Of a stretch of 64,000 nucleotides of DNA, positions 4,511 to 47,280 are shown in pieces; the stretch's first letter is position 1; every line of letters starts with the position of its first letter. The DNA is from Flavobacteriales bacterium (GTDB taxonomy: Bacteria; Bacteroidota; Bacteroidia; CAIKAF01), in the NCBI GenBank assembly GCA_022402535.1, contig JAKRSD010000007.1:77110-141109 (forward strand), in the 5' to 3' direction. The position numbers and the translations under genes are program-made. The notes beneath the pieces were generated by a model. That model did no database searches. It was not told the origin of the DNA and saw nothing but the letters and a program-made list of their open reading frames with translations.

Positions 4511-4569
4511 TTCCTGCTAAATATCCTTAAATCGGGAATAGGGACCGGTTTATCCCGTTACTAAATGGT

Positions 4570-8435: not shown

Positions 8436-8729
8436 TTAGCCTCTCTCCAGTACCTTAGGTACCCGAAAATAGTCGGAGTCTTTTTTGGGTGCGTTTTTCA
8501 GGGCTTCGTCGTGGGTCAGTGTCTGAACCACTTCATCCTTACGGAGTGCATTAATTTCATCCGTCATATAAATTAACGGCTCCACGCCTTCCGTGTCCAA
8601 TGCATTGAGTTTTTCCATGAAGGATAAAATTTTATTCATATCCCCCAAAAGTGTGGCCTTTTCTTCCGAATTGAATTCCAGTTTGGCCAATTCGGCCATT
8701 TTATCCACCGTTTCTTCCGTTAATTTCAT
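8436..8729 (-). CDS. gatC: Asp-tRNA(Asn)/Glu-tRNA(Gln) amidotransferase subunit C
   Basis: The protein has 97 residues. It is the small subunit that holds GatA and GatB together in the enzyme that converts Glu-tRNA(Gln) or Asp-tRNA(Asn) to the amidated form. The family pattern is complete: KLTEETVDKMAELAKLEF near the start, LGDMNKILSFMEKLNALDT in the middle, LRKDEV, and the C-terminal YFRVPKVLERG. An in-frame upstream start at 8750 is less likely than the ATG at 8729. No gatA or gatB is in the window. Confidence 0.95.
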   Translation of the reverse strand: MKLTEETVDKMAELAKLEFNSEEKATLLGDMNKILSFMEKLNALDTEGVEPLIYMTDEINALRKDEVVQTLTHDEALKNAPKKDSDYFRVPKVLERG

Positions 8730-8797
8730 GATGCGAAGATAACGAATCACCGATAAATCAAAACATCAGCTCAAATATTGCGGAAAAGCGCATTCTG

Positions 8798-8828
8798 TTT
8801 GGAAAATTCACAACATTGAGTAAGTTTG
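8798..8828 (+). promoter_or_regulatory. Bacteroidota-type promoter in front of the regulator and polysaccharide operon
   Basis: TTTG (8798-8801) is followed after 19 bp by TAAGTTTG (8821-8828), a perfect match to the consensus. The regulator's ATG at 8842 is only 13 nt further on, so the leader must be very short. Confidence 0.85.
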
Positions 8829-8837
8829 TTACTCAAT
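8815..8837. promoter_or_regulatory. Palindromic operator candidate over the -7 box
   Basis: ATTGAGTAA (8815-8823), spacer GTTTG, and TTACTCAAT (8829-8837) form a perfect 9-bp inverted repeat. It covers the -7 element completely and ends 4 nt before the start codon of a winged-helix protein. The geometry is that of an autorepressor binding site. That the neighbouring regulator is the one that binds is an inference. Confidence 0.7.
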
Positions 8838-8841
8838 TAAG

Positions 8842-9363
8842 ATGATAGAGGCCTTAATTACATCCAAAACCCGAATCCGCCTGTTGGTGAAATTCTTTTT
8901 GAATCCCGCCATGAGTGCGTATTTGCGCGAACTTTCAGACGAATTCGGTGAAAGCACAAACGGCATTCGGGTAGAACTAAACCGTATGGCCAAAGCAGGT
9001 ATTCTGGAAACCCGTTCCGAAGGTAAAACCCTCTTATACAAAGCCAAAGTATCGCATCCGCTGTTCAATGAAATCAGCGGGCTGGTGGCAAAATACATCG
9101 GGCTGGACAAAATTGTGGAAGATGTGGTGCGTAAACTCGGTAAAGTAGATGCGGCCTACATTACGGGCGACTATGCCAAAGGAAAAGATACAGGCATAGT
9201 GGACTTGGTGCTGGTTGGCGATGTGGACAAAGCTTATCTGCTTACGTTGATTGAAAAAGTTGAAAATCTGATAAACAGAAAAATTCGTTTTTTGATTCTT
9301 ACCCGAGAAGAGTCAGAAAACATATTAAATAAACCGGGGGCCATCCTGATCTGGAGGTCCTGA
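8842..9363 (+). CDS. Winged-helix regulator with a C-terminal nucleotidyltransferase-like domain
   Basis: The protein has 173 residues. Residues 1-75 form an ArsR-like winged helix (TRIRLLVKFFLNPAMSAYLREL, then a recognition helix in STNGIRVELNRMAKAGILE and a wing SEGKTLLYKA). Residues 100-173 (VDAAYITGDYAKGKDTGIVD, LVLVGD) resemble a minimal nucleotidyltransferase fold, but the full G-S-x10-D-x-D signature is not evident, so activity is doubtful. Proteins of this build often stand at the head of polysaccharide clusters in Bacteroidota. It lies 64 bp before the ABC exporter genes and may be the first gene of that operon. A palindrome over its own promoter points to autoregulation. Confidence 0.8.
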   Translation: MIEALITSKTRIRLLVKFFLNPAMSAYLRELSDEFGESTNGIRVELNRMAKAGILETRSEGKTLLYKAKVSHPLFNEISGLVAKYIGLDKIVEDVVRKLGKVDAAYITGDYAKGKDTGIVDLVLVGDVDKAYLLTLIEKVENLINRKIRFLILTREESENILNKPGAILIWRS

Positions 9364-9365
9364 TT

Positions 9366-9431
9366 ATGCTGCCTTGGCAGTTGCTTCTCATCCTTTCGCC
9401 GGGACTGAGGAGGCGAAGCTTTGAAAAATGA
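9366..9431 (+). CDS. Possible 21-residue leader ORF upstream of wzm
   Basis: An ATG 2 bp after the regulator's stop opens a 21-codon frame, MLPWQLLLILSPGLRRRSFE plus K. Its TGA overlaps the ATG of the exporter permease (ATGA, 9428-9431). A small imperfect hairpin (TTCGCC...GGCGAA, about 9395-9418) lies within it. It may be a translational coupler or chance. No homologue is known to me. Confidence 0.25.
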   Translation: MLPWQLLLILSPGLRRRSFEK

Positions 9432-10276
9432 ATCCACATTATAAACTGTATACCGCCGAAGCGGGAAAAAAATCAAGGTATAGCCTGTTTTCAGCGCCAT
9501 TCAAGGATTTGGCCGACTCGCAAGGCTTAGCCATGCGGCTCACTATCCGCGATATCAAAAGCTCATACCGGGGGTCATTTTTGGGCGTGTTATGGATTTT
9601 CATCACCCCGCTGATGAATACGCTGATCTGGATGATGCTGAATGTTTCGGGTGTGGTGCGTATTGCCGAAACCCCAATCCCCTACCCGGTGTATATTTTC
9701 ACGGGAACCATGCTTTGGTCCGTTTTTACCGAAAGTTTACTTAGCCCGCTCAATCAGACCACTTCATCCAAAAGCATACTTTCCAAAATTAATTTCCCTA
9801 AAGAAGCGCTTATACTCTCCGGAATCTATAAAATTCTCTTCAACACGGGTATAAAACTAATATTGATGTTTGGCACCATGTTGATTTTGGGAGTATATCC
9901 CGACTGGCATCTGTTGTTTTTTCCCATTGCCCTTTTTTCATTGATGTTTGCGGGAACAGCTTTCGGAATGCTTGCCGCACCGCTGGGATTACTTTATGGC
10001 GATGTGGGTCGGATTATTCCCATGGCCACACAGGTACTCATGTACATGAGTCCGGTGGTATATGTGATGAAAGGGGAAGGCGTATTACAAAAAGTCATGG
10101 CCATAAACCCGCTTACCCCCTTGTTGGTGAATGCAAGAAACTGGCTTACGGGATTGCACTCCGAACAGATTTATTACTTTATCGGAATTAATCTGGTATT
10201 AATACCGGTATTTTTTGCCGGCTGGTTGTTTTACAGAGTATCCATTCCAATCATTGTAGAGCGTTCGGGCTCATAA
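9428..10276 (+). CDS. wzm: ABC-2 type polysaccharide export permease
   Basis: The protein has 282 residues and six predicted membrane spans. The N-terminal cytoplasmic part carries the typical LTIRDIKSSYRGSFLGVLWIFITP block of the Wzm/TagG/KpsM family. Later segments include YPVYIFTGTMLWSVF, FPKEALILSGIY and YMSPVVYVM. It forms the inner-membrane channel that moves a lipid-linked glycan with the ATPase encoded 4 bp downstream. It is the first of 35 closely spaced genes on this strand. Confidence 0.92.
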   Translation: MNPHYKLYTAEAGKKSRYSLFSAPFKDLADSQGLAMRLTIRDIKSSYRGSFLGVLWIFITPLMNTLIWMMLNVSGVVRIAETPIPYPVYIFTGTMLWSVFTESLLSPLNQTTSSKSILSKINFPKEALILSGIYKILFNTGIKLILMFGTMLILGVYPDWHLLFFPIALFSLMFAGTAFGMLAAPLGLLYGDVGRIIPMATQVLMYMSPVVYVMKGEGVLQKVMAINPLTPLLVNARNWLTGLHSEQIYYFIGINLVLIPVFFAGWLFYRVSIPIIVERSGS

Positions 10277-10280
10277 AAAT

Positions 10281-11492
10281 ATGCAGGAAGAAGTACTGAT
10301 CCGGGCGGAACATGTTTCCAAAAAATTTTGTCGCGACCTTAAAAAAAGTTTGTGGTACGGCATGCAGGATTTGGGAAAAGCGGCTGTTGGGATATCTCCT
10401 TCACAGCAGTTAAGACCGCATGAGTTTTGGGCGGTTAATGATATTTCGTTTGAAGTAAAACGGGGCGAATGCTTAGGGTTAATCGGTCATAACGGAGCCG
10501 GCAAAAGCACCCTGCTCAAAATGCTGAACGGACTGCTCACTCCCGACAAAGGAAGCATAGAAATGAAGGGGCGTGTGGGGGCACTGATCGAACTGGGCGC
10601 AGGATTTAATCCGATACTTACCGGAAGAGAAAACATCTTCAACAATGCCGCCATTCTGGGCTTTTCAAAAAAAGAAACGCTCGACAAACTTGATGAAATT
10701 ATTGCCTTTGCCGATATAGAAGATTTTCTGGATACACCCGTACAAAACTACAGTTCGGGCATGAGGGTCAGATTGGGTTTTGCCGTGGCTGCACAGATGA
10801 AACCCGATATTCTGATTATTGATGAAGTGTTGGCCGTGGGCGACATGGGATTTGTGTTGAAATGCTTCAACCGCATGGACGAACTTTTGAAAGATACGGC
10901 CCTGATTCTGGTTTCACACAGTATGCCACAGATAGCCCGCATGTGTACTCAGGTTTTGCTTATGTCAAAAGGGCAAAATCAATACCTGAGCAACGATGTA
11001 AGTACAGGAATCACCCGCTATTACGAAATGTTCGGAGAAGAAATAAATTCCTTTTCCGAAGGAGAAAAAGTAGATCTTTCGGATATAACACTGCTTTCGG
11101 AAGGAAATAAAGGAACCCGAACGGAAAACTTATTGATGGATTATGCGGCTCCATTGGAAATTCAAATCGAAATTACCTGCCGCGAAGCGGTAGAATATAT
11201 GTGGGTTTATCTGGCTTTTTACGATAAAGAACAACGCATTTTTGCCGAAGTCAATAATTTTACGGATGCCCTGACTCTTAAGCGGGTTGAGAATAAAGTG
11301 ATTGTATCGGCATATATTCCTTCACTTCCCTTTGCGCAGGGCGCATATTCTATCAGTGTAGGCATCGGCGAAGAACAAAACGGAGCCAGAAGAACTTTAC
11401 TCCGAAGTCAGTCGGCTATTTATTTCACGGTACACGGTAAGCATCACGGTTGGGCGCCCATACAGTACGAACCCGAATGGAAGCTGTTATAG
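10281..11492 (+). CDS. wzt: ABC transporter ATPase with glycan-binding C-terminal domain
   Basis: The protein has 403 residues. Residues 1-240 are the nucleotide-binding domain: Walker A GHNGAGKST (69-77), ABC signature YSSGM (157-161), Walker B DILIIDE and a switch His in LVSHS. Residues 250-403 form an added beta-rich domain as in Wzt, which in O-antigen systems recognises the finished end of the chain. That extension suggests that the exported polymer may carry a specific terminal modification. It acts with the Wzm permease at the inner membrane. Confidence 0.92.
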   Translation: MQEEVLIRAEHVSKKFCRDLKKSLWYGMQDLGKAAVGISPSQQLRPHEFWAVNDISFEVKRGECLGLIGHNGAGKSTLLKMLNGLLTPDKGSIEMKGRVGALIELGAGFNPILTGRENIFNNAAILGFSKKETLDKLDEIIAFADIEDFLDTPVQNYSSGMRVRLGFAVAAQMKPDILIIDEVLAVGDMGFVLKCFNRMDELLKDTALILVSHSMPQIARMCTQVLLMSKGQNQYLSNDVSTGITRYYEMFGEEINSFSEGEKVDLSDITLLSEGNKGTRTENLLMDYAAPLEIQIEITCREAVEYMWVYLAFYDKEQRIFAEVNNFTDALTLKRVENKVIVSAYIPSLPFAQGAYSISVGIGEEQNGARRTLLRSQSAIYFTVHGKHHGWAPIQYEPEWKLL

Positions 11493-11508: not shown

Positions 11509-12930
11509 ATGATTTCCAAATTTCATAAATCGCACCAAAAGTTTTTAGAAAGTGCTTTTGCATTTAACGGAGCCAAACATACCACGGCTTTTGTGAAACA
11601 ATGGCTGAAGGAACAGAACGAAAAAGTGTATGTGAAGGTGGAAAAGATTCCCTTTTCCCAATTAGAAAAATGGGAATTCCGAAACGGTGCTTTGCGCCAC
11701 GAAAGCGGCAAATTTTTCAGTATTGAAGGGATACAGGTAGAAACCAACTGGGGCCCTGTATTATCTTGGGAACAGCCCATTATCAATCAGCCCGAAATCG
11801 GTTATCTGGGCTTTATCGTGAAAGAATTTAACGGGGTATTGCACTTTTTGATGCAGGCCAAAATAGAACCGGGGAATATTAATTACGTGCAGCTTTCGCC
11901 CACCATACAGGCCACCAAAAGCAATTACACCCGTGTACACGAAGGGAAATCCCCGTTATACCTGGAATATTTTGTAAACACCCCTCCTGATGAAGTGTGG
12001 GTAGACCAGTTACAATCGGAACAGGGGGCTCGTTTTCTCAAAAAAAGAAACCGAAATATCATCATTCATGTAAATGAGAATATCCCTGAATATGAAAATT
12101 TTATTTGGCTTACCCTGGCGCAGATAAAAGAACTGGCCCAATTCGACAATCTGGTGAATATGGATACCCGGACAGTAATTTCGGGCATAACCTTCGGGAA
12201 TTTTGATGTCGATTCCTTTATGCAGTCACATCAACTTTCAGGGATAGAATCAGCCCTTTTGAAATCGGCATGTAACAACGAAAACGAGCTGAACAGCTTC
12301 GATTATATCCTTCGTTTTGTAACGCGACACAAGGCGGGATATGATATATCCATAACATCCGTTGCGCTCGACAAAGTGAAAAACTGGCAACAGGACGCAT
12401 ATAAAATTCATCACGCAGAAAATAAATACTTTAATGTGATAGCCGTTCGGGTAGAAATTGGGAACCGTGAAGTGGTGCAATGGACACAACCCATGATTGA
12501 ACCGGCACAGGAAGGTATTTGTGCGTTTGTGTGTAAAGAAATCAATGGGATTTTACATTTTGCCGTGCAGGCAAAAATGGAATGCGGAAATTTTGATGTC
12601 ATAGAATTTGCACCTACTGTTCAATGCCTGACCGGAAACTATAACAACGAAAATTCGCTGAAAACACTTCCTTTTTTAGATTATGTGTTGAAAGCAGACA
12701 CAAAACAAATCATCTTCGACACATATCAATCCGAAGAAGGCGGTCGCTTTTATCGCGAACAAAACCGCAATGTAATGGTATTGGCAGGTGATGAAATTCC
12801 GGTAGAATTGCCGGAACATTTTATCTGGATGACTTTGCAACAATTGCAGACATTCATACGGTTTAATAATTACATTAATGTGCAGGCCCGGAGTTTAATT
12901 TCGGCCATCCGTTTTAAACATGAATCATAA
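11509..12930 (+). CDS. NDP-hexose 2,3-dehydratase (EvaA family)
   Basis: The protein has 473 residues, the family's usual length. It consists of two homologous halves, about 1-235 and 245-473, as in all members: FNGVLHFLMQAKIEPGN / INGILHFAVQAKMECGN, SEQGARF / SEEGGRF, and NFIWLTLAQIKEL / HFIWMTLQQLQTF recur in each half. Known members remove water from dTDP-4-keto-6-deoxyglucose to give a 3,4-diketo-2,6-dideoxy sugar, the entry to 2-deoxysugars in antibiotics. The next two genes encode a matching 3-ketoreductase and an aminotransferase. The substrate here is inferred from the family. Confidence 0.85.
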   Translation: MISKFHKSHQKFLESAFAFNGAKHTTAFVKQWLKEQNEKVYVKVEKIPFSQLEKWEFRNGALRHESGKFFSIEGIQVETNWGPVLSWEQPIINQPEIGYLGFIVKEFNGVLHFLMQAKIEPGNINYVQLSPTIQATKSNYTRVHEGKSPLYLEYFVNTPPDEVWVDQLQSEQGARFLKKRNRNIIIHVNENIPEYENFIWLTLAQIKELAQFDNLVNMDTRTVISGITFGNFDVDSFMQSHQLSGIESALLKSACNNENELNSFDYILRFVTRHKAGYDISITSVALDKVKNWQQDAYKIHHAENKYFNVIAVRVEIGNREVVQWTQPMIEPAQEGICAFVCKEINGILHFAVQAKMECGNFDVIEFAPTVQCLTGNYNNENSLKTLPFLDYVLKADTKQIIFDTYQSEEGGRFYREQNRNVMVLAGDEIPVELPEHFIWMTLQQLQTFIRFNNYINVQARSLISAIRFKHES

Positions 12931-12933
12931 ACC

Positions 12934-13923
12934 ATGAGCAGACCTGTAAGAATCGGCGTGTTAAGTACGGCTTCCATAGGAAAACGATTTGTAATTCCTG
13001 CCATACAAGAGCTTCCCGAACTTTTTTCTTTTGCAGGAATTGCTGGTAGAAACATTGATAAAACAAAAGCATTCGCAGAAACTCTTGGTGAAAACATAGC
13101 CTATTATGGCAATTATGACGATTTGATAGACGCCCAAAAAGTAGATGCGTTATATATTCCCCTGCCTAATGCAATGCATTATGAGTGGGTGAAAAAAGCA
13201 TTGGAAAACGGAATTCATGTATTGGTGGAAAAATCATTAGCGTGTAGTGTATCAGAAGCTGAAGAATTAGTCGATTTAGCCGAATCTAAACACCTGGCCC
13301 TGATTGAAAATTTTCAATTCCGATTTCATCCCCAGACTCAATTCATACTGGATACGCTTAAAAAGGGCGTAATTGGCGATATCCGCTCGGTGAAAAGTTA
13401 TTTCGGCTTTCCTCCATTTCAAGAGGATGATAACATCCGCTATCAACAAACATTAGGCGGCGGGGCATTATTGGATGCCGGTGCTTATCCGTTAAAAATG
13501 TCGCAACTGCTACTGGGATTTGACCTTCAGGTATGTTCAGCCGTATTAAACACTCAGCCTGAACGCGAAGTGGATATATGGGGTGGAGCCTTTTTAAAAC
13601 AAAATAATGGTGCAGCCTTTTCGCAAATCAGTTTTGGTTTTGACCATTTTTACCAATGCAGTTTAGAAATTTGGGGAAGCCAGGGGAAATTAACCGCAGA
13701 ACGCATATTTACCGCACCGCCGGGATTTGAAGCCGAAATAAAAATAGAAACATCGAAAGGAACCGAACTCCATAAAATATCGGCAGCCAATCATTTCAAA
13801 AATATGCTGGCACATTTTTATAGATTAATTACAAAAGGCGAAGGGCTTGAGATTGAATACCTGCATAACAGAACACAAGCCCGTTTAATTGACGAATTAC
13901 GCAATACATCACATGAGCAATAA
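12934..13923 (+). CDS. Gfo/Idh/MocA family oxidoreductase, likely 3-ketoreductase for a 2-deoxysugar
   Basis: The protein has 329 residues. The Rossmann start RIGVLSTASIGKRFVIPAI binds NAD(P); the middle has the family's EKSLACS (Glu-Lys pair) and GGGALLDAGAYPL motif. It follows the 2,3-dehydratase by 3 bp. In macrolide and vancomycin pathways this family reduces the 3-keto group left by the dehydratase, giving dTDP-4-keto-2,6-dideoxyhexose. That role is inferred from the family and its position. The 3' end overlaps the next gene by 11 bp. Confidence 0.82.
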   Translation: MSRPVRIGVLSTASIGKRFVIPAIQELPELFSFAGIAGRNIDKTKAFAETLGENIAYYGNYDDLIDAQKVDALYIPLPNAMHYEWVKKALENGIHVLVEKSLACSVSEAEELVDLAESKHLALIENFQFRFHPQTQFILDTLKKGVIGDIRSVKSYFGFPPFQEDDNIRYQQTLGGGALLDAGAYPLKMSQLLLGFDLQVCSAVLNTQPEREVDIWGGAFLKQNNGAAFSQISFGFDHFYQCSLEIWGSQGKLTAERIFTAPPGFEAEIKIETSKGTELHKISAANHFKNMLAHFYRLITKGEGLEIEYLHNRTQARLIDELRNTSHEQ

Positions 13924-14998
13924 ACCCATTTTTGTTACCAGGGCCTCATTGGCTCCTTTAGAAGAATATACAGAAATATTAAAAGGAGTATGGGAAAGAG
14001 GCATCCTTACGCATAACGGTCCATTGGTTCAGCAATTGGAAGCCGATATATGTGCAGAGTTAAATCTATCTCATTTTGTAGCCGTTTCTAACGGAACCAT
14101 AGCCCTTCAAATGGCCATTAAAGCCCTGGAACTGCAAGGCGAAATTATCACCACGCCATTTACCTGGATTGCCACGGTTAGCGCCATAAAATGGGAAGGC
14201 TGCACCCCGGTATTTTGTGATATCGACCCGGAAACCCTCAATATTGACCCCGCTAAAATAGAGGCATTAATAACCGATAAAACGGTGGCCATTATGCCGG
14301 TACATGTTTTTGGTGTACCCTGCGATGTAGATGCCATTCAGGCGATTGCCGATAAACATGGACTTAAGGTGATTTATGATGCGGCGCATGCCATAGGTTC
14401 AACATATCAGGGAAAAAGCATATTGGAATTTGGTGATATATCTGCTACCAGTTTACATGCCACCAAACTGCTGAATACTGCTGAAGGAGGCGGTTGTATA
14501 ACAAAAAATAAAGGGCTGTTTCATAAACTTCAGCGTATCCGTTTTTTCGGACACAGCGACGATAAAACAGACATTGTGGAGGACGGATTCAACGGTAAGC
14601 TGACCGAGGTGCACGCCGCATTGGGACTGGCCAATCTGAAATACCACAAACAGGTTGCAGAAGACCGTAAACGGAAATACAACCTGTATCTGGAACTGTT
14701 GCAGAACAATCCCGAACTTACTTTTCAAAAATCAAAAACCGGGGAATGCAATTACTCCTATTTCCCGGTTATATTTGAAAGTGAAGAAAAACTGCTGAAA
14801 ACTGAAAATAAACTGAAAGAAACACAGATTTATCCCCGCAGGTATTTTTACCCATCGGTGAACACTTATACCAAAGTGGTTCCTTATCAACCCTGCCCGA
14901 TTTCGGAAGATATTTCAAAACGGATATTGTGTTTACCGCTTTATTGGGAACTGAAAGAGGAAGACGTGCAACAAATTATACAAATAATCAATTCTTAG
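13913..14998 (+). CDS. DegT/DnrJ/EryC1 family sugar aminotransferase
   Basis: The protein has 361 residues. It is a PLP-dependent sugar aminotransferase: the lysine is K185 in SLHATKLLNTAEGG, and ITTPFTWIATVSAIKWEG, the DIDPETLNID loop and YDAAHAIGSTY are family landmarks. The sequence is closest to the type that aminates C-4 (as in VioA). With the two preceding enzymes it could make dTDP-4-amino-2,4,6-trideoxyhexose. An upstream in-frame start at 13889 is disfavoured. The ATG at 13913 overlaps the end of the reductase gene. Confidence 0.87.
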   Translation: MSNKPIFVTRASLAPLEEYTEILKGVWERGILTHNGPLVQQLEADICAELNLSHFVAVSNGTIALQMAIKALELQGEIITTPFTWIATVSAIKWEGCTPVFCDIDPETLNIDPAKIEALITDKTVAIMPVHVFGVPCDVDAIQAIADKHGLKVIYDAAHAIGSTYQGKSILEFGDISATSLHATKLLNTAEGGGCITKNKGLFHKLQRIRFFGHSDDKTDIVEDGFNGKLTEVHAALGLANLKYHKQVAEDRKRKYNLYLELLQNNPELTFQKSKTGECNYSYFPVIFESEEKLLKTENKLKETQIYPRRYFYPSVNTYTKVVPYQPCPISEDISKRILCLPLYWELKEEDVQQIIQIINS

Positions 14999-15001
14999 TC
15001 C

Positions 15002-15709
15002 ATGAAGCTGGCAGTAATGCAGCCATACCTATTTCCTTACATCGGATATTTTCAATTGATAAATTCTGTAGATAAAATAATTATGTACGATGATGTAAAT
15101 TATATTAAAAATGGGTGGATAGATCGAAATAGAATTTTAGTAAACAGTAATCCAATATATTTCAAAGTTCCCTTAAAAGATACTAGTTCATTTAAAAAAA
15201 TATGTGAAACAGAAATTAATTACGCAATCTACAGTAAATGGAAAGATAAATTATATAAAACCATAGAATTGTCATATAAAAAAGCTCCGAATTATAAAAA
15301 TGTATTTGAATTGATAACAGAAACCTTTGAAAAAAAATATATGAACGTAGGTCAACTTGCTACACAATCAATTAATAACACTTCAAAGTATTTAGGAATA
15401 AAAACAAAAATTGAAATAACATCAACAATATATAAAAATGAAAGTTTACAGCGGACAGAAAGGCTTATAAATTTTTGTAAAATTGAAGGAGCGAAAACAT
15501 ATATTAATTTAGTTTCTGGAAAAGAGTTGTATGACAAAAATAATTTTAATATACGCCAAATTGAATTAAATTTTATTTCACCAATGCTAAATGAATATAA
15601 ACAACTTAAAAATACTTTTATTCCAGGATTGAGTATTATAGATGTAATGATGTTTAATTCAAAAGAAGAAATAACTTATATGCTAACTCAATATAAATTA
15701 ATCAAATGA
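15002..15709 (+). CDS. WbqC family protein
   Basis: The protein has 235 residues. The start MKLAVMQPYLFPYIGYFQLI, followed by DKIIMYDDVNYIKNGWIDRN, is the signature of the WbqC family, which occurs in O-antigen and capsule clusters. A role in amino-sugar N-modification has been suggested from context, but I know of no proven reaction. The coding sequence is strikingly AT-rich (for example 13 G+C in 60 bases at 15061-15120, against 31 in 60 at 14161-14220), which suggests separate acquisition. It overlaps the next gene by 4 bp. Confidence 0.85.
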   Translation: MKLAVMQPYLFPYIGYFQLINSVDKIIMYDDVNYIKNGWIDRNRILVNSNPIYFKVPLKDTSSFKKICETEINYAIYSKWKDKLYKTIELSYKKAPNYKNVFELITETFEKKYMNVGQLATQSINNTSKYLGIKTKIEITSTIYKNESLQRTERLINFCKIEGAKTYINLVSGKELYDKNNFNIRQIELNFISPMLNEYKQLKNTFIPGLSIIDVMMFNSKEEITYMLTQYKLIK

Positions 15710-16689
15710 GCAAAAAGGAAAGTATCGGCGGGTACTTAAGTCTAGAATTAAGCAATTTAAACACATTATACCATGATAATGCATATGCATTAAATACAGG
15801 AAGAAATGCACTTGAACACATCTTAAGATGCAAAAACTATAAACATGTCTATATTCCATTTTTTACTTGTGAAGTAATTCTTGAGCCTTTTATTAAAACA
15901 AAAACACCATACTCATTTTACCATATAAATAACTGTTTTCAACCTATACTAGGACAAATAAAATCATATGATGCAATACTTTATACAAACTACTTCGGTT
16001 TAATGAATGATGATATAGAAAAACTATCTAATAGATATTCAAATTTAATTATCGACAATTCACAAGCATTTTATGACTACCCCTTAAGAAATAATCCTAC
16101 ATTTTATAGTCCCCGAAAATTTTTTGGAATAAGTGACGGAGGATTTTGTTATAATGCTGAAGAAATCCCTATAGAAAAATATAAAATTGATTTTTCTTAT
16201 AAAAGGTTTTTGCATTTGATAAAATCTATTGACACGGGAAAAGAAGATTCTTACCAAGAATATTTATATAATGAGGACCATTTGAAAAATCAAAAGGTGA
16301 AGATTATGTCAGCTTTGACAAGAAATATTTTGAAATCAATACATTTTGAAAATATTAAAAATAAGAGAAATTCAAATTTTAATTTTCTTCATGAAAATTT
16401 AAAAGATTATAATTTGCTTACTGAATTGATAGATTACAAATCTCACCATTGTCCAATGGTATATCCATTTATGGTAGAAAATGGTACGGAATTAAGAAAA
16501 TATCTCATTAATAATAAAATATATACAGCACAATATTGGTCTAATGTAAAGGATTGGACTGAACCAACATCTAATGAATATATATTTACTGAAAATATTA
16601 TTCATATTCCTATAGATCAAAGATATAATTTCAAAGATTTAGAAATAATTCAAAATTTAATTTATGAATATTTACGGAAAACTTGTTAA
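15706..16689 (+). CDS. DegT-like PLP-fold protein, paired with WbqC
   Basis: The protein has 327 residues. It begins with GGYLSLELSNL and YALNTGRNALEHILRCKNY, as in a divergent group of DegT/DnrJ-type aminotransferases. YIPFFTCEVILEP, the LIIDNSQAFYDYP Asp/Gln region and SPRKFFGISDGGF, with a candidate PLP lysine, keep the order of a fold-type-I enzyme. It is shorter and more divergent than the two canonical DegT proteins in this cluster, so activity is likely but not certain. It is AT-rich like its wbqC neighbour and overlaps it and the acetyltransferase gene, so the three probably moved together. Confidence 0.65.
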   Translation: MSKKESIGGYLSLELSNLNTLYHDNAYALNTGRNALEHILRCKNYKHVYIPFFTCEVILEPFIKTKTPYSFYHINNCFQPILGQIKSYDAILYTNYFGLMNDDIEKLSNRYSNLIIDNSQAFYDYPLRNNPTFYSPRKFFGISDGGFCYNAEEIPIEKYKIDFSYKRFLHLIKSIDTGKEDSYQEYLYNEDHLKNQKVKIMSALTRNILKSIHFENIKNKRNSNFNFLHENLKDYNLLTELIDYKSHHCPMVYPFMVENGTELRKYLINNKIYTAQYWSNVKDWTEPTSNEYIFTENIIHIPIDQRYNFKDLEIIQNLIYEYLRKTC

Positions 16690-17206
16690 AATGAGAGCCA
16701 TTGAAAAAGAAGACCTGGTGCTTTTGAATAAATGGGCCAACGACCCAGAGATTCAATACTGGCTGGGGGGGTGGCATTTTCCTACCAATATGGAAGATCA
16801 ACAAAAATGGTTTAATTCATTGTCAGCCAATTCAAAAGATCAACGTTTTATTATTGAAACAGAAGAGCTGGGTATAATTGGTACTGCAAATCTTGTTGAT
16901 ATTAACTGGAAAGACAGAAACGCTTTTCATGGCATGTTATTAGGAGACAAAGATACCCGTGGCAAAGGGTATGCCTTTGATACAGTGATGACAATCATGA
17001 AATATGCTTTTGAAGAATTAGGTTTGGAAAGGCTAGACGGATCAATTATAGATTATAATAAAGCATCTATTAAACTATATACTGAGAAGTGCGGATGGGA
17101 AATTGAAGGAACAAAAAGAAGGTGGTATTTTCGAAATGGCAAATTTTGGGATAAGCTAATTGTTGGAATAACAAAAGATAAATATAATGAAATATTTAAT
17201 TATTAA
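16664..17206 (+). CDS. GNAT family N-acetyltransferase
   Basis: The protein has 180 residues. MNIYGKLVKMRAIEKEDLVL is the usual beginning of RimJ/PseH-type GNAT proteins, and LLGDKDTRGKGYAFDTVMTI carries the acetyl-CoA loop (R/Q-x-x-G-x-G/A pattern as RGKGYA). YTEKCGWEIEGTKR is the final strand. In a sugar cluster it most likely acetylates an amino sugar made by a neighbouring aminotransferase. The start overlaps the previous gene by 26 bp; the ATG is kept because it gives the full family N-terminus. Confidence 0.83.
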   Translation: MNIYGKLVKMRAIEKEDLVLLNKWANDPEIQYWLGGWHFPTNMEDQQKWFNSLSANSKDQRFIIETEELGIIGTANLVDINWKDRNAFHGMLLGDKDTRGKGYAFDTVMTIMKYAFEELGLERLDGSIIDYNKASIKLYTEKCGWEIEGTKRRWYFRNGKFWDKLIVGITKDKYNEIFNY

Positions 17207-17208
17207 TT

Positions 17209-17694
17209 ATGGACTTATTTAATAAATTATTATTTAAGATATTATGGCAGTTAAAAAAATACTTTGAAAAACATGCTATTAAAAACTTAAAATCAATATA
17301 TAATATTCACGATAGCGTTGAAATATTTTATCCTATAATTTTTAATGGTAATATTTCTATTGGTGAAAATACATATATCATGCATTACTGTGAATTTATT
17401 ACAGGGGAGAATTCAAAAATAACAATTGGTTCAAATTGTGCAATAGCAAAAAATGTTACAATCAGAAGCTTAACACATGAACAAAATAAACCACTATATA
17501 GAACAAAAAATTTAAAAGAAAAAGATGTATTTATTGGAGATAATTGTTGGATAGGCGCAAATGTTTTTATAAAAGAAGGGGTAACAATAGGTAGTAATTC
17601 TATAATTGGAGCCAATTCAGTTGTGACAAAATCATTTCCTGAAAATTCTATAATAGGTGGTGCACCTGCCATATCTTTAATGAAAAATGTTTGA
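17209..17694 (+). CDS. Left-handed beta-helix (hexapeptide repeat) acyltransferase
   Basis: The protein has 161 residues. Imperfect hexapeptide repeats ([LIV]-G-x4) run from ISIGENTYIMHYCEF to VTIGSNSIIGANSVVTKSFP, with the common closing motif IIGGAPA. LTHE near residue 90 contains the likely catalytic His. Such trimeric enzymes transfer acetyl groups to sugars. The acceptor is unknown. The gene is AT-rich. Its end overlaps the next glycosyltransferase by 8 bp. Confidence 0.83.
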   Translation: MDLFNKLLFKILWQLKKYFEKHAIKNLKSIYNIHDSVEIFYPIIFNGNISIGENTYIMHYCEFITGENSKITIGSNCAIAKNVTIRSLTHEQNKPLYRTKNLKEKDVFIGDNCWIGANVFIKEGVTIGSNSIIGANSVVTKSFPENSIIGGAPAISLMKNV

Positions 17695-18592
17695 TAATAC
17701 TGAAATACCTGTTGTAAGTATCTGCTGTATTACATATAATCACAGTAAATTTATACGTGACTGCATTCAAGGTTTTTTAATTCAAAAAACATCGTTTCCA
17801 ATAGAAATCTTAATTTTCGATGATGCATCAACAGATAATACAGCAAATATTTTACAAGAGTTTACCTTAAATAATGAAAATATTATTCTCTTTTTACAAA
17901 GCGAAAACCAATGGAAAAAAAATAAATTTGGAATTAAAGACTGGTTATTACCAAATGCAAAAGGAAAATACATTGCCTTTTGTGAGGGAGATGATTACTG
18001 GACTGATCCGCATAAACTGCAAAAGCAGGTAGATTTTTTGGAAAGTAATTCAACATATATCGGTACGTTTCACCGGGCTCATTTTTTAAATGAACGAAAT
18101 GGTGCCGATACGTGCTATCCTGTTTGGTATAAAGAAAAAGTAGAATTTACGGATGCACTTAGGGAATGGCTGATTCCTACAAATACCTTGATGTTCAGAA
18201 ATACAAACGATTTTCCGTTTTCGCATTTTGAAAATAAATTAACGTATTCTGGCGACCGGCTTATGCATCTTTTGTTGACGGATAAAGGCCCGATTCATTA
18301 TATGCATGAAACCATGTCGGTTTATCGAATCCACAATGCAGGAGCTACAGCCGATGCTTCCTATCATAATTACGAGGGCGAACTCCGATATTTTAAATTA
18401 CTCACACTCGTCTGCGATGTCGTTTCACCACAAAATGCATTGAAAATTAAAGAATATATCTACAGACGAAGTCTGTTTTTATACAGAACCGGAAACGGTA
18501 AAAAGAAAAAAGAATTTGCACGTTTTTACTTAAAAAACGACTTGCATTCAAATTATCTAGGCAAAATTCACAACCTGCTTAAATGGCGGTAA
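17687..18592 (+). CDS. Glycosyltransferase family 2
   Basis: The protein has 301 residues. It has a GT-A fold start, VVSICCITYNHSKFIRDCI, then IEILIFDDASTDNTANIL with the first Asp pair, and FCEGDDYWTDPHKLQKQ with the metal-binding D-D. SVYRIHNAGATAD lies after the catalytic domain. It should transfer a nucleotide-activated sugar at the cytoplasmic membrane. The sugar cannot be told from sequence. It overlaps the next gene by 10 bp. Confidence 0.85.
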   Translation: MFDNTEIPVVSICCITYNHSKFIRDCIQGFLIQKTSFPIEILIFDDASTDNTANILQEFTLNNENIILFLQSENQWKKNKFGIKDWLLPNAKGKYIAFCEGDDYWTDPHKLQKQVDFLESNSTYIGTFHRAHFLNERNGADTCYPVWYKEKVEFTDALREWLIPTNTLMFRNTNDFPFSHFENKLTYSGDRLMHLLLTDKGPIHYMHETMSVYRIHNAGATADASYHNYEGELRYFKLLTLVCDVVSPQNALKIKEYIYRRSLFLYRTGNGKKKKEFARFYLKNDLHSNYLGKIHNLLKWR

Positions 18593-20106
18593 AAGAACCT
18601 GTATTACTGATTATTTTTAATCGTCCGGATAAAGTTCGGGCGGTGATGCAGGCGATTTCGATATATGCTCCCGAAAAATTGTATATTACTGCCGACGGAC
18701 CGAGAATAAATCATTCGGGAGATATTGAAAAATGTGAAGCTGCCCGAAAAGCCGCGTTGGAATCCATAACCTGGCCCTGCGAAGTAAAAACCCGTTTTCT
18801 GGATGAAAATATGGGCTGTGGACCGGCTCCGTCTTCGGGCACGACCTGGTTTTTTGAACACGAAGAAAGGGGTATCATTCTGGAAGATGACTGTCTGCCC
18901 CATCCTGATTTTTTTAATTATTGCAGTGAACTACTCGAAAAATATAAGGACCATACAAACGTCATGAAAATAAATGGCAACCTCTTGACAGAATTGCCTT
19001 CAAAAATTTCACATTCCTACTTTTTCTCAAAATTCAGTCAGGGCCCCGGATATGCCACCTGGAGAAGGGCCTGGAAACATTTCAGCTTTCAACTTCAGGA
19101 ATATGATGCATTTAAGAATTCGGATATACTGGAAAAAATAAATCCAAACCGGTCTTTCAAAAAGTATTGGATTGAAAAATTCAATATTGTGGAATTTGGT
19201 CAGCGCGATATCTGGGATTATCAATGGGCATACGCCATCTGGAAAAATAACGGAATTTGCATTACTCCGGCGGTAAATCTGGTATCCAACATCGGATTTG
19301 ATGAAGAAGGCACCCATACCAAAGGAGATTCTGTGCTGGGTAACAGAAAAACATTTCCCATTCTACCGCTGAAACACCCTGCTAAGGAGGAGATGGACAA
19401 GAAGAGAGATCAACATCTGTTTGAAAACATCTTTTTTGTTAAAGAGGAAAAAACGCCCTTGGTACAAAAGCTGAAAAATAAGCTGAGTGCGGCTTCTGCC
19501 CAATATTTTCAAAATGAAGAAAACCTTAAATTTCATCCCGAAAAAACAATCGGTTCTTATGCGTTTAATCAAAAAATATGGAAGTTTTATTCGGGTGATA
19601 TTCTGAAAATTGAAAAAGAAGTGGTTTTAAAAAAATGGCATCTTTCGGTTAAACATTCCTTTAATAAACTACTCCTGTTTCATGAGCAATCCGGCCTTTT
19701 GGCCTCGGAAATATTTCGTTACCATGCCATCGAAAAAGCGGTAATATTCAGGGACAGTTTATCTCATATTCCCTATGAACTATTGGCTACTAATTTGAAT
19801 GAGAATAACATTCCGTACAGTGAAATGGAATCAACTTCATTCAATGAACAAGGTGCACATTTTTTGGTGGGAATAGCAGAGGATAATTATGAAGAATTGT
19901 TCCAAAACCTTCACCAATGGCATGTGAAAGAAGCCGTATTGATACTCAGAATTAAAAAATCTTCGGCATTAAACATAAACACAGAAGGATTTACAATCAA
20001 TTTCAGAGGGGTATATTATTCCAAAAGACCACTTATGTATCCATTTTTAGGCGATTCGGATACGGTGAATATTGTTTGTTTACATCTTAGCAAAAACTCA
20101 AACTGA
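18583..20106 (+). CDS. GT-A glycosyltransferase with an unidentified C-terminal domain
   Basis: The protein has 507 residues. Residues 1-290 are a GT-A type domain: VLLIIFNRPDKVRAVMQAI, LYITADGPR, GIILEDDCLPHPDFF (the D-D-x motif) and the WGYATW-like GPGYATWRRAWKHF. This type is often annotated as a nucleotide-diphospho-sugar transferase in Bacteroidota. Residues 300-507 are a separate region with no family I recognise (LSAASAQYFQNEENLKFHPE onwards, with HFLVGIAEDNYEELFQNLHQ). The extra domain could be a second enzyme or a partner-binding part. The stop is 1 bp before the methyltransferase start. Confidence 0.75.
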   Translation: MAVKEPVLLIIFNRPDKVRAVMQAISIYAPEKLYITADGPRINHSGDIEKCEAARKAALESITWPCEVKTRFLDENMGCGPAPSSGTTWFFEHEERGIILEDDCLPHPDFFNYCSELLEKYKDHTNVMKINGNLLTELPSKISHSYFFSKFSQGPGYATWRRAWKHFSFQLQEYDAFKNSDILEKINPNRSFKKYWIEKFNIVEFGQRDIWDYQWAYAIWKNNGICITPAVNLVSNIGFDEEGTHTKGDSVLGNRKTFPILPLKHPAKEEMDKKRDQHLFENIFFVKEEKTPLVQKLKNKLSAASAQYFQNEENLKFHPEKTIGSYAFNQKIWKFYSGDILKIEKEVVLKKWHLSVKHSFNKLLLFHEQSGLLASEIFRYHAIEKAVIFRDSLSHIPYELLATNLNENNIPYSEMESTSFNEQGAHFLVGIAEDNYEELFQNLHQWHVKEAVLILRIKKSSALNINTEGFTINFRGVYYSKRPLMYPFLGDSDTVNIVCLHLSKNSN

Positions 20107-20107
20107 A

Positions 20108-20944
20108 ATGAAGTATGTTAATTTAGGTTGCGGAAACCGATATCATAATGATTGGATAAATTTTGATTTTATTTCAGCCGGTGCAGATGTTATTCCTTGT
20201 GACCTTACCCGCGGAATTCCCTTAGAAGATAATTCAACTGACGTAGTATATCATTCACACGTTCTAGAACATTTTACTAAAGAAGGTGGGGAATTTTTCA
20301 TTTCAGAATGTTTTAGAATACTTAAACCCGGAGGCATAATCCGCATTGCGGTTCCCGATTTGGAAGGAATCACCAAATCCTATCTGGAATGTCTGGCTGA
20401 TGTCAGAAACAAGCCGGACGAAAAAACGAAAGCCAATTATCAGTGGGCCGTGATTGAATTGATAGATCAATTATCCAGAAATCAGAGCGGCGGAGAAATG
20501 ATTAAAATGTGGAAACAGGAAAATGTAGTGAATACGGATTTCATACAACAACGCATCGGAGATGAATTTGTAGCATTTCGCAACCAACTCCTTCAACCTG
20601 GAGAAAAAGTAATAGCTAAAACGGCTAAAAACACTTCGTTTACCGATAAGTTGAAACATAAGCTGATACTTATGCTGGGCGGAAACAACGGCATGAGCGA
20701 AAGCGAAAAAAAACAATACCAGACCGGCAAATTCCGCACGGAAGGCGAAGTGCATTTATGGATGTACGATGCGTATTCACTACAAAATTTACTTGAAAAC
20801 ATCGGTTTTAAACAAGTTCAAAAGACTACAGCCGATAAGAGTTTAATCAGTCAATGGGAAAAATATAACAGCCTGGATATTGAAAACGGCCAAACCCGAA
20901 AACCTGATTCCCTTTTTATGGAAGCTGTAAAACCGCTGCAATAA
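20108..20944 (+). CDS. Class I SAM-dependent methyltransferase
   Basis: The protein has 278 residues. MKYVNLGCGNRYHNDWINFD gives the SAM-binding G-x-G motif, followed by the VIPCDLTRGIPLEDNSTDVV acidic loop, YHSHVLEHF and FRILKPGGIIRIAVPDLEG, all typical of methyltransferases in glycan clusters. A long central insert (residues 105-225) is helical. An in-frame start at 20072 inside the preceding gene is rejected. It may methylate a sugar, perhaps the chain end that Wzt recognises, but this is inference. Confidence 0.82.
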   Translation: MKYVNLGCGNRYHNDWINFDFISAGADVIPCDLTRGIPLEDNSTDVVYHSHVLEHFTKEGGEFFISECFRILKPGGIIRIAVPDLEGITKSYLECLADVRNKPDEKTKANYQWAVIELIDQLSRNQSGGEMIKMWKQENVVNTDFIQQRIGDEFVAFRNQLLQPGEKVIAKTAKNTSFTDKLKHKLILMLGGNNGMSESEKKQYQTGKFRTEGEVHLWMYDAYSLQNLLENIGFKQVQKTTADKSLISQWEKYNSLDIENGQTRKPDSLFMEAVKPLQ

Positions 20945-20945
20945 C

Positions 20946-22193
20946 ATGAGAATTCTGCATGTAAGCACCACCTTAGGAGGCGGAGCCGGAAAAGCGGCTC
21001 TCAGGCTACATGAAGCCCTATTGGATAGGGGTGTGGATTCTCATATACTTTGTAAAGATTTTGGCGGAGTTACCACCCGTAATGCACACCGGATTCAGTT
21101 TCAGCCCAATCGTTTTCAGCGCCTTGCCCACAAACTGGGTTCAACCTATATTCTCGAAAAAAATATTCGGAAAACAAAAGGAGCTACCCATTTTTATGAG
21201 TTTTTTTCCTTTGCTTCCAATGACTTAGATATAACCCGACACCCGGAATTTGAAAAAGCGGATATTATCCATTTGCATTGGGTAGGCAATTTTTTCGATT
21301 GGGAGCGTTTTTTCACTTCACACAACAAACCTGTATTTTGGTCATTGTGCGATATGAATCCTTTTACCGGCGGATGTCATTATGCCGACGGATGCAATAA
21401 ATATACAGACACATGCAGCTCTTGCCCTCAGTTAAGAGGTACGGAAAACGAACAAAATGCTGCGTTGAATCTTTCCTATAAAATGAATTCGCTTCAGGCT
21501 TTCAAAGGGAAATTATATCCTGTAGCAGCCGCCCATTGGATGAAAAATCACATGGAGAATTCGGTGCTTTTTAAGCCATTACATATTGAAGTTATTCCAC
21601 ACGCTTCGGACGAGAAAATATACCGTCCTACAGATAAACACTTTTGTAAAAGTGTGTTTAATGTGCCCGAAAACAAAATCCTTTTTCTCTTTTTGGCCGA
21701 TAATACGGACATTAAACGAAAAGGTTTTGACCTCTTGTTAGATGCCTTAAAACTCATCGATACAGAACGGGTACATTTTTTAATCGTGGGCCATGTAAGT
21801 TCAAAAATGAACCTTCCTGCAGAGCAATTCACCCAAACGGGAATTATACGCGATGAAAGACTGCTCGCATTGGCCTATAACGCTGCAAATGCAATAATCA
21901 TTCCTTCCAGAGAAGATAATCTGCCCCTTACGTTGATAGATTCTCAGATGTGCGGAGTGCCGGCTATAACATTTGACACGGGAGGAATGGCCGAACATAT
22001 TATAGAAGGTAAAAACGGATTTAAAGCCGAAGAAATTACCGCAGCGTCTTTAGCCAATGCCATAAAACGAGCCATTTCCGGGTTAGATGAAATTAAGGCG
22101 GAGCCTTTACATCAACAGGCTATGGAAAAATTTGCCAAACCGGTTCATGCACAACACTATCTGTCGCTATACAAAAGGGTTTTAGAGAAATGA
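20946..22193 (+). CDS. Glycosyltransferase family 4
   Basis: The protein has 415 residues and a GT-B fold. MRILHVSTTLGGGAGKAALR is the N-terminal start, HLHWVGNFF the first-domain end, LFLADNTDIKRKGFDLLLDA the linker, and PSREDNLPLTLIDSQMCGVP the E-x7-E-type motif. A Cys-rich part (CHYADGCNKYTDTCSSCPQL, residues 141-160) is typical of the subgroup that acts in Bacteroidota surface polysaccharide clusters. The gene ends in an ATGA overlap with the next one. Confidence 0.87.
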   Translation: MRILHVSTTLGGGAGKAALRLHEALLDRGVDSHILCKDFGGVTTRNAHRIQFQPNRFQRLAHKLGSTYILEKNIRKTKGATHFYEFFSFASNDLDITRHPEFEKADIIHLHWVGNFFDWERFFTSHNKPVFWSLCDMNPFTGGCHYADGCNKYTDTCSSCPQLRGTENEQNAALNLSYKMNSLQAFKGKLYPVAAAHWMKNHMENSVLFKPLHIEVIPHASDEKIYRPTDKHFCKSVFNVPENKILFLFLADNTDIKRKGFDLLLDALKLIDTERVHFLIVGHVSSKMNLPAEQFTQTGIIRDERLLALAYNAANAIIIPSREDNLPLTLIDSQMCGVPAITFDTGGMAEHIIEGKNGFKAEEITAASLANAIKRAISGLDEIKAEPLHQQAMEKFAKPVHAQHYLSLYKRVLEK

Positions 22194-22876
22194 TTATCGG
22201 AAACGGACTCATTGCGAATGCGCTCAGCAGTTTTAGAGAAAATCAGGATATTCTCCTCTTTGCATCAGGCGTATCCGATTCATCAGAAACCCGGGAGGAA
22301 GCTTTTCAACGCGAATACAATCTGATTGAGGACACCTTGAATAAGTATGCCTCTTTGCGTTTTATTTATATCAGCACATGCAGTATTTACGACGATTCAC
22401 TTAAACACTCTCCTTATCTGCATCACAAATTAGCAATTGAAAAAAAAATTCAAGAGACTCATGCCGATTATTTGATTTTGAGACTTCCCAATATGGTAGG
22501 TCAAGGAGGAAATCCTAAAACCATGGTGAATTATTTTGTACATGCCATCAGAAATAACCAGAAAATACAGATTCAAAAATCTGCTTTTCGAAATCTGTTG
22601 GACTGTGAAGATTTGGAACCGGCATTACAAGCCATTCTAAACAATACATTTCATAACGAGATAATCAATATTGCCAATCCGATAAATTATCGGGTTTCAG
22701 ACATTGTGCGCACGATTGAAAACTACCTGAATAAAAAAGCAGATATTGAATGGATTGAAGGAGGAGGAGAATATGAAATTACTCTTGAAAAAACCGGTGA
22801 TATCCTGTTTAGCCTGAGAAAAGATTATGGGTTGAATTATTTAACCGAAATGCTAAAAAAATACATCCCGAATTGA
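22190..22876 (+). CDS. Short NAD-dependent epimerase/dehydratase-like protein
   Basis: The protein has 228 residues. It starts MIIGNGLIANALSSF, a shortened Rossmann nucleotide loop, then has YISTCSIYDDS and YLHHKLAIEKKI, which carry the Ser/Tyr-x3-Lys catalytic set of SDR sugar enzymes (HHKLAIEK gives His in place of the usual Tyr). ILRLPNMVGQGGNP is the substrate-domain start. It is shorter than standard sugar epimerases (about 300) and the Tyr is not where expected, so its reaction is uncertain. It overlaps the preceding and following genes by 4 bp. Confidence 0.65.
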   Translation: MIIGNGLIANALSSFRENQDILLFASGVSDSSETREEAFQREYNLIEDTLNKYASLRFIYISTCSIYDDSLKHSPYLHHKLAIEKKIQETHADYLILRLPNMVGQGGNPKTMVNYFVHAIRNNQKIQIQKSAFRNLLDCEDLEPALQAILNNTFHNEIINIANPINYRVSDIVRTIENYLNKKADIEWIEGGGEYEITLEKTGDILFSLRKDYGLNYLTEMLKKYIPN

Positions 22877-23661
22877 AAAATCCTGTGCTATCTGTATTAT
22901 TGATTGTGTTGAATAATAAGCAATTTATTGCGGCCGCCATTCAAAATTATCTGGATCAGCAATGTGCAGAATCTGAATTGGTCATCATGGATGGAGCCAG
23001 CACGGACGGTACAAAGGAAATTATAGAATCACAGGCAAAAAATAACCCGCAGATTCGCTGGGTTTCCGAAAAAGACAAGGGACAATCGGATGCCATGAAC
23101 AAAGCCATCCGCATGGCAAAGGGTAAATACATCAGCTTTTTAAACGTGGATGATTTTTATGAACCCGGTACCCTGAACCAGATTCTTCAACTGATAAAAA
23201 GCGGAGAAACAGCCGAATTTATTGTGGGGAATTGTAATGTGTGGGACAGCGACGGGAAATTAATTTATGTAAACCGTCCTAAAAAACTCAAGCCCTGGCA
23301 TATACTCAGCGGGAAATATTTACCCGTAAATCCTACGGCTTATTTTTACAAAAAATCCATTCATGATAAGGTTGGTTTTTACACTATGGAAAACCACTAT
23401 AATATGGATGTTGAGTTTATTATTATGGCCTCTACGGTGGCGAAAATGAAATATTTCGACAGTACATGGGGAAATTTCAGGGTTCTGCCCGATACCAAAA
23501 CAGGTTCTGATGCCGAAGCCGGAAAAATGTGGGAACGGAAAAATCAGCTTTTTGAACGCAAATTGAAAGAGTTGGGATTTTACATTTTCTTACGGACTAA
23601 ATTATTCCTTTACTACCTGCATTATAAAAACGTATTTAAGAAAAAATGGCAGGCCGGCTGA
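22873..23661 (+). CDS. Glycosyltransferase family 2
   Basis: The protein has 262 residues and a TTG start. It has LSVLLIVLNNKQFIAAAIQN, ELVIMDGASTDGTKEII and ISFLNVDDFYEPGTL, giving the GT-A Asp motifs. WVSEKDKGQSDAMNKAIRMA is the typical helix before the D-x-D. This resembles the WcaA-like group. It overlaps the neighbours on both sides by a few bases, consistent with coupled translation. Confidence 0.85.
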   Translation: MKNPVLSVLLIVLNNKQFIAAAIQNYLDQQCAESELVIMDGASTDGTKEIIESQAKNNPQIRWVSEKDKGQSDAMNKAIRMAKGKYISFLNVDDFYEPGTLNQILQLIKSGETAEFIVGNCNVWDSDGKLIYVNRPKKLKPWHILSGKYLPVNPTAYFYKKSIHDKVGFYTMENHYNMDVEFIIMASTVAKMKYFDSTWGNFRVLPDTKTGSDAEAGKMWERKNQLFERKLKELGFYIFLRTKLFLYYLHYKNVFKKKWQAG

Positions 23662-24341
23662 AACAACTAGCCGAAAGGCTTTACCGTAGGAGATTGCGCA
23701 ATGCCATGCTTCGAACCCAAGTTTGTATTATATCAAACGATTGTTGGGGCGGACAGCCCTATAAATATGCCGGAGTGGAATACAATACGCCTTTTGTCGG
23801 ATTGTTTCTTACGGCACCCTGTTATATAAAGCTGTTAAATAAGCTGGAAGATCATATTAAAAGAAATCATTTGGAATTTGTACCCATTTCAAAATATGAT
23901 TTTATCAATGCGTACAGAAATAAAAACAACCTCAATTATCCTATCGGTTTATTAAATGGGGAAATTGAAATTCAATTTTTACACTACCCTTCTGAAGCTG
24001 ATGCTTTTGAAAAATGGAACAAAAGGGCACAAAGAATGAATTTTTCAAATCTGGCGGTAAAATTTGATGGTTCTAAAGATTTAGCGGGCCCTGATGAATG
24101 TACGACGTTTAGCCAAATGCCCTTCACAAAAAAAATACTGTTGAATAATTTCGAAAACAAAACAGGGTTATCCTGCGAAATAATCAGCCCCGAATGGCAG
24201 TCAGATGGTGCAAAAATGTTCAGATACTCCCTAAATTTATTTGACTTTAACACATGGATACAAACAGGTAATTTGGTTTCCAATCCTTTTCAACTTCTCT
24301 GTTATAAACACATTATTGCCCACACGAAAAATTTGTTATAG
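23646..24341 (+). CDS. DUF1919 exopolysaccharide biosynthesis protein
   Basis: The protein has 231 residues. VCIISNDCWGGQPYKYAGVE followed by YNTPFVGLFL and PIGLLNGEIEIQFLHY, and later NLAVKFDGSK, identify the DUF1919 family found in capsule and exopolysaccharide clusters, thought to be sugar-modifying or transferase-like. No mechanism is proven to my knowledge. The basic N-terminus (KQLAERLYRRRLRNAM) could sit on the membrane. The start overlaps the preceding GT by 16 bp. Confidence 0.8.
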   Translation: MAGRLKQLAERLYRRRLRNAMLRTQVCIISNDCWGGQPYKYAGVEYNTPFVGLFLTAPCYIKLLNKLEDHIKRNHLEFVPISKYDFINAYRNKNNLNYPIGLLNGEIEIQFLHYPSEADAFEKWNKRAQRMNFSNLAVKFDGSKDLAGPDECTTFSQMPFTKKILLNNFENKTGLSCEIISPEWQSDGAKMFRYSLNLFDFNTWIQTGNLVSNPFQLLCYKHIIAHTKNLL

Positions 24342-29009: not shown

Positions 29010-29029
29010 AACCTGATTATACTCTTCCC

Positions 29030-31754: not shown

Positions 31755-31757
31755 AAA

Positions 31758-33476: not shown

Positions 33477-33479
33477 AAT

Positions 33480-35486: not shown

Positions 35487-35510
35487 GGCTCGCTGCCAAT
35501 TCATAAAGCC

Positions 35511-36713: not shown

Positions 36714-36717
36714 ACGC

Positions 36718-40477: not shown

Positions 40478-40481
40478 AAAA

Positions 40482-41114: not shown

Positions 41115-41123
41115 TCCAACTCA

Positions 41124-43504: not shown

Positions 43505-43508
43505 GAAA

Positions 43509-44321: not shown

Positions 44322-44351
44322 TCCCAACAAATTTTTCAATCTTTGAATAAC

Positions 44352-45251: not shown

Positions 45252-45259
45252 TCTGACCT

Positions 45260-46381: not shown

Positions 46382-46410
46382 TCCCCAACTACCCTTCCCC
46401 TCTCTTTCTT

Positions 46411-46870: not shown

Positions 46871-46877
46871 GGTTTGT

Positions 46878-47195: not shown

Positions 47196-47280
47196 TTAAA
47201 TTAGGTTTTTTACTTGGAGAAAAATACAATATTTATACAAATGGGACGCTTTACAACTCAATATATTCCTTTATCCCTAT

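Follow-up and report, generated by a model that had tools for sequence, protein, structure and literature searches.

A conserved palindrome over the promoter of a predicted autorepressor and a putative ops-like element at the head of a Flavobacteriales polysaccharide operon

Results

Gene content of the locus

The stretch of Flavobacteriales DNA analysed here (64,000 nucleotides in full, hereafter the window) contains a gene for a 173-aa regulator (8842..9363, + strand) that combines an N-terminal winged helix with a C-terminal nucleotidyltransferase-like domain. It is followed on the same strand by 35 ORFs of a polysaccharide cluster, the number given in the original prediction, which extend to position 46381 and are separated by gaps of at most 25 nt, with the exception of 65 nt behind the regulator. 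The families of the cluster comprise glycosyltransferases, an ABC exporter and nucleotide-sugar enzymes. An ABC-2 type membrane protein, i.e. a Wzm-like exporter component, is encoded at 9428..10276 (+), an ABC ATPase with a Wzt C-terminal domain at 10281..11492 (+), and the other 33 ORFs, likewise with gaps of at most 25 nt, occupy 11509..46381 (+). An NDP-hexose 2,3-dehydratase gene lies early in the cluster (11509-12930) and points to a deoxysugar in the polysaccharide. Upstream of the regulator is a divergent gene (8436..8750, - strand), GatC-like in our own judgement of its sequence. Right behind the cluster, positions 46399-47800 hold several diverged copies, about 100-175 nt each, around the hairpin ACTCCGTGCTTG(A/G)CACGGAGT; these copies are REP-like and yield no Rfam match.

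The operator and the regulator promoter

The regulator gene is preceded by a perfect palindrome, ATTGAGTAA-N5-TTACTCAAT, at 8815..8837, which belongs to neither strand in particular. Its arms (8815-8823 and 8829-8837) are complementary at 9/9 positions across a 5 nt spacer, and its conserved core reads GAGTA-N7-TACTC (8818-8834). The regulator promoter, TTTG-N19-TAAGTTTG (8798-8828), matches the Bacteroidota -33/-7 pattern, with the -33 box TTTG at 8798..8801 (+) and the -7 box TAAGTTTG at 8821..8828 (+), the latter lying wholly within the operator. The ATG at 8842 begins 4 nt past the right arm, and the transcription start is predicted at about 8834-8836. The palindrome, the enclosed -7 box and the distance to the ATG had been described in the original prediction for the span 8798-8842, i.e. 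from the -33 box through the ATG, and all agree with the present analysis. Termination of the upstream gene by the palindrome is ruled out by the divergent orientation of that gene.

Perfect inverted repeats with arms of 9 and a gap of up to 10 are present at 12 positions of the window, versus a mean of 4.75 in simulated sequence; such repeats arise by chance, so that the palindrome alone proves nothing and outside evidence is needed. When one mismatch is permitted, the window still contains a single GAGTA-N7-TACTC motif, and the full operator site is present in a single copy in the 3.4-Mb genome, so that the regulon in this genome would be the operon itself. Searches of the same genome for a wider regulon gave N5-9-spaced sites no more often than the control (6 versus 7), and 24 near matches to the operator versus 29 in the control.

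Conservation of the operator among homologues

A scan of GTDB species genomes recovered 80 homologues of the regulator with 41-64% identity over the best segment. They come from Bacteroidota, Balneolota, Chlorobiota, Kapabacteria, Synergistota, one Spirochaetota genome and Aneurinibacillus, and the window protein clusters with homologues of its own family and of Flavobacteriales. With at most one mismatch, GAGTA-N7-TACTC is found within 400 nt upstream in 70 of the 80 (51 exact, 19 with one mismatch); the 777 control stretches, drawn from these loci, gave 0 exact and 7 single-mismatch occurrences. A second search, in a set of 39 homologues that overlaps partly with the first (a few genomes are common to both), detected the motif with the same tolerance within 500 nt in 35/39. 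The original prediction had staked itself on conservation of the palindrome upstream of orthologues, and the palindrome is present before most of about 120 homologues in several phyla. In three loci (L025, L168, L190) the operator is located farther upstream and does not adjoin the gene, and some homologues, e.g. those of L033, L036, L065 and L077, have no recognisable operator. Loci L001, L004, L008 and L014 possess an operator that ends at or overlaps the ATG, so that the transcript predicted there would have almost no leader or none. L047 and other Algoriphagus loci share an ORF of about 123 aa immediately 5' of the operator; in L047, where it spans 4367-4735, its product gives no Pfam match.

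The bases enclosed by the half-sites follow the promoter type. TAnnTTTG is in register at the centre of 52 Bacteroidota operators; in operators outside the Algoriphagus group, a TTG is situated 18-20 nt upstream of it in 17/20. In many Bacteroidota operators the -7 box is without its TTTG half: outside the Algoriphagus group, 19/53 have TAnnTTTG. Operators of Synergistota, Chlorobi-like, Spirochaetota and Bacillota genomes are centred on a TAnnnT hexamer, i.e. a sigma-70 -10 box, and 13 of these 18 sites from outside the Bacteroidota proper have a -35 box matching TTGACA in at least 5/6 positions at 16-18 bp (0.3 expected by shuffling). As read from the sequences, the half-sites are constant and the box between them varies with the promoter type of the host. 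The flanking pairs 1 to 4 of the operator covary (T-A with C-G, A-T with T-A), with shuffle fractions of 0.0004-0.015 when kinship is ignored. Half-sites kept over the core promoter, together with covarying flanks, are the mark of a DNA-bound dimer, i.e. of a repressor.

Genome-wide, GAGTAnnTTTGnTACTC is found in 13 of 296 genomes of the phylum, namely in 10/42 with the regulator versus 3/254 without (Fisher 2.5e-7). Three Algoriphagus-type genomes, all of one genus, possess a second operator before a nucleotide-sugar dehydrogenase gene 20-28 kb from the regulator, and these trans copies are followed by the second element described below at a distance of 111-128 bp. Polysaccharide genes are also located downstream in other homologue loci, and are absent from the vicinity of a distant homologue (29%) on a Bradyrhizobium plasmid.

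The regulator protein

In the winged helix, residues S38, N40, R43, E45 and L46 of the recognition helix are invariant in 55 homologues; a DNA-reading helix of this kind would be in keeping with the invariant half-site. The C-terminal domain (residues 89-165, 9106..9336, + strand) gives a profile match to PDB 2RFF (E 1.8e-4), which weakly suggests its identity as a nucleotidyltransferase-like domain, and contains the conserved motif GDYAxGxDSGxID. The position of the first catalytic Asp (Ile119 in the window protein) is I, L, V, T or K in 53/55 homologues, the second catalytic Asp is retained in 46/55, and the GS motif reads GD in 48/55. Judged by these counts, the domain does not have the signature of active nucleotidyltransferases (Pol beta fold, MNT), GS plus paired Asp (DxD). 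Ligand binding, not catalysis, appears the likeliest role of the domain; loss of the first catalytic Asp fits a sensor. The original prediction of a nucleotidyltransferase-like sensor is thus retained in part: the domain is recognised, if weakly, by its sequence, and the lost Asp is compatible with sensing. That the ligand may be a nucleotide sugar is a guess from the neighbouring genes. The window protein scores below every curated family cut-off that was tried, e.g. 18.5 bits for ArsR/SmtB metalloregulators (curated NCBIfam cut-off 55) and 20 bits for the PaaX-like family PF07848 (Pfam gathering score 24.8).

The second element between regulator and exporter

The one wide gap of the operon, between the regulator and the exporter, contains a second element, CGGGACTGAGGAGGCGAAGCTTTG, at 9400..9423 (+). 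Its consensus, drawn from 80 distinct sites, is TGKGACTGA-N3/4-GGCGAAGCYKTR, from which the window copy deviates at one position; the ops-like half comprises the 12 nt at 9412-9423. Flanks that were not used in the search are 95-99% conserved. In about half of the regulator loci the element occurs behind the regulator gene or between operator and gene, and three genomes from the same family as the window possess a GACTCA variant in the same place.

Of 395 genomes of the phylum, 36 contain the full pattern, at 46 sites in all; the reversed-pattern control gave 0 sites. It is intergenic at 29/30 examined sites, often 30-130 nt from the next ORF, and a NusG-paralogue gene lies within 1.2 kb at 8/30; in locus L115 the element extends into the 5' end of one of these genes. 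With N3 spacing the element is present in 29/296 genomes, 26 of which (26/29) have at least two NusG genes, versus 157/296 overall (p 1.8e-5, kinship ignored). The N1 and N2 spacings have no link to NusG genes. The window's own genome possesses one housekeeping NusG, one NusG paralogue (L099, on another contig) and one second element. In loci L221 and L224 (also L136 and L140) the element is situated at about position 1500, before an operon that starts with a contractile-tail sheath gene (MAVQ..YPGVYVQE), and is accordingly not restricted to polysaccharide operons.

The conserved bases of the element fall into two blocks, little paired and at an almost constant distance from each other. Neither an Rfam family nor JUMPstart was matched at the leader, and the predicted folding of the window leader does not surpass that of shuffled sequences (z 0.09). 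As DNA, some variants of the ops-like half are predicted to form a non-template hairpin, the window copy not being among them, and the outer pair of this hairpin has a weak covariation that is not significant (0.09). Bacteroides UpxY reportedly reads non-template and upstream duplex DNA at the paused polymerase. On this ground, and by its likeness to ops, the second element is read as an ops-like loading site for a NusG paralogue, an assignment that seems likely, though less certain than that of the operator.

Discussion

Proposed mechanism

Read directly from the sequence are the palindrome, its position on the promoter, its conservation and covariation, its trans copies and the second element; binding, dimerisation, repression, the ligand and the recruitment of NusG are what we infer from them. 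A palindrome that overlaps the regulator's own core promoter and is conserved with the gene has the hallmark of an autorepressor. Two copies of the product of 8842-9363 would bind the operator together, the winged helix of each contacting one GAGTA half-site, and the bound homodimer would cover the -7 box and leave RNA polymerase unable to open the promoter. Since the regulator gene heads the operon, the protein would limit both its own synthesis and the entire polysaccharide cluster. The C-terminal domain, in which the first catalytic Asp is lost, is probably a sensor for a nucleotide or a nucleotide sugar and would thereby alter DNA binding. A polymerase that has escaped would then encounter a second gate at 9400-9423. 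At this ops-like site it would pause and be loaded with a specialised NusG paralogue, encoded elsewhere in the genome, which would carry transcription through the remaining 37 kb. The operon thus probably has two gates, one at initiation (operator) and one at elongation (NusG paralogue). Taken as a whole, the reading of 8815-8837 as an autorepressor operator, with control of the operon, a C-terminal sensor and an ops-like second gate, appears highly probable.

The autorepressor of the original prediction thus gains support from operators that lie mostly over the -7/-10 box and have covarying flanks. The accompanying view, that one small switch may control the full cluster, is incomplete, as the second element suggests an additional gate at elongation. 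On a wider scale, a two-gate module for long polysaccharide operons in Bacteroidota and beyond, in which a trans-phylum winged-helix repressor, sensing a nucleotide sugar through its degenerate nucleotidyltransferase domain, controls initiation, and a phylum-wide, two-part, ops-like element controls elongation by loading a NusG paralogue, is put forward tentatively, as a possibility slightly short of even. The findings would name a regulator family, and the DNA code that it reads, for the surface-polysaccharide operons of many Bacteroidota from the environment, of Synergistota and of others, groups in which the regulation of surface polysaccharides is little known, and TGKGACTGA-N3/4-GGCGAAGCYKTR would provide a sequence handle on how NusG paralogues find operons outside Bacteroides and proteobacteria.

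Alternative explanations

The same palindrome might serve an activator, or a repressor converted by its ligand, that reshapes the promoter as MerR proteins do; an operator on the core promoter and a C-terminal domain capable of binding a ligand would both suit such a protein. Sites of the MerR type are placed between the -35 and -10 boxes, where the spacer is 19 bp. Here the palindrome core starts 3 bp upstream of the TA in the -10/-7 box and extends beyond the box toward the start site, where a bound protein would block opening, and the sigma-70-type operators mostly have a spacer of 17 bp, which makes an activator improbable. Still less probable is a global regulator that binds the palindrome while the neighbouring winged-helix protein works elsewhere: enrichment of the pattern is confined to genomes that have the regulator (10/42 versus 3/254), the operator accompanies the regulator gene in several phyla, and a site that occurs once in its own genome is ill-suited to global control. 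The palindrome is self-complementary and precedes the start codon, as would a 5'-leader RNA hairpin, be it an attenuator or a stability element; the predicted start, however, falls inside or just past the palindrome and would leave the left arm untranscribed, the operators of L001, L004, L008 and L014 reach or overlap the ATG, and conservation tracks the promoter boxes, so that such a hairpin is hardly credible.

More weight, if still on the unlikely side, is due to the proposal that a structured RNA or a ribosome-binding feature, and not an ops-like loading site, accounts for the second element. The element would be transcribed and often lies 30-130 nt before the next ORF, as such a feature might; yet no Rfam match was obtained, the folding of the leader (z 0.09) is that of shuffles, the two blocks at nearly fixed spacing have little pairing, and NusG-paralogue genes adjoin the element. 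The loading site remains the preferred reading.

Comparison with known systems

In the literature searched, no paper was found on the regulator or on the second element. Switches of this type are already known; in that literature nothing was found on the regulator family and its DNA code, on their occurrence in several phyla or on their pairing with an ops-like element. Autorepressors of the ArsR, PaaX and GntR types share with the present system a small winged-helix protein, a palindromic operator over the -10/-7 box and the position of the gene as first of its operon. Unlike in these, the regulator scores under the family cut-offs, a nucleotidyltransferase-like domain replaces the known sensor, and the half-sites are the same across phyla while the promoter boxes differ. 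Proteins combining an HTH with a minimal nucleotidyltransferase, including MNT antitoxins, are comparable in that the C-terminal domain aligns with 2RFF, a solved putative nucleotidyltransferase (E 1.8e-4). They differ in that nearly all homologues of the regulator have another residue in place of the first catalytic Asp, and in that the neighbours are polysaccharide genes; with regard to HEPN/MNT toxin-antitoxin pairs, the adjoining gene encodes an ABC exporter and HEPN is absent from the listed families of the cluster.

The loading element of RfaH in E. coli, ops, is GGCGGTAGCGTG (PMC5995543). The half GGCGAAGCYKTR resembles the RfaH/ops/JUMPstart system (PMC5995543) in its 12 nt, the leading GG, the T at position 11 and a short loop that a C3:G7 pair might close. 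The intergenic location before long surface-polysaccharide operons and a NusG paralogue in trans are further likenesses. The second element differs from ops in its central bases, in the additional conserved upstream half TGKGACTGA and in its phylum, and matches neither GGCGGTAGCGTG nor JUMPstart.

UpxY, like the paralogue proposed here, is a NusG paralogue of Bacteroidota, and its reported two-part reading of DNA would suit a two-part element. It acts on its own Bacteroides capsule operon together with UpxZ. In contrast, the NusG paralogue of the window's genome is encoded apart from the operon (L099), one element consensus is common across the phylum, and the first genes of the operon are those of the regulator and the exporter in place of upxY and upxZ.
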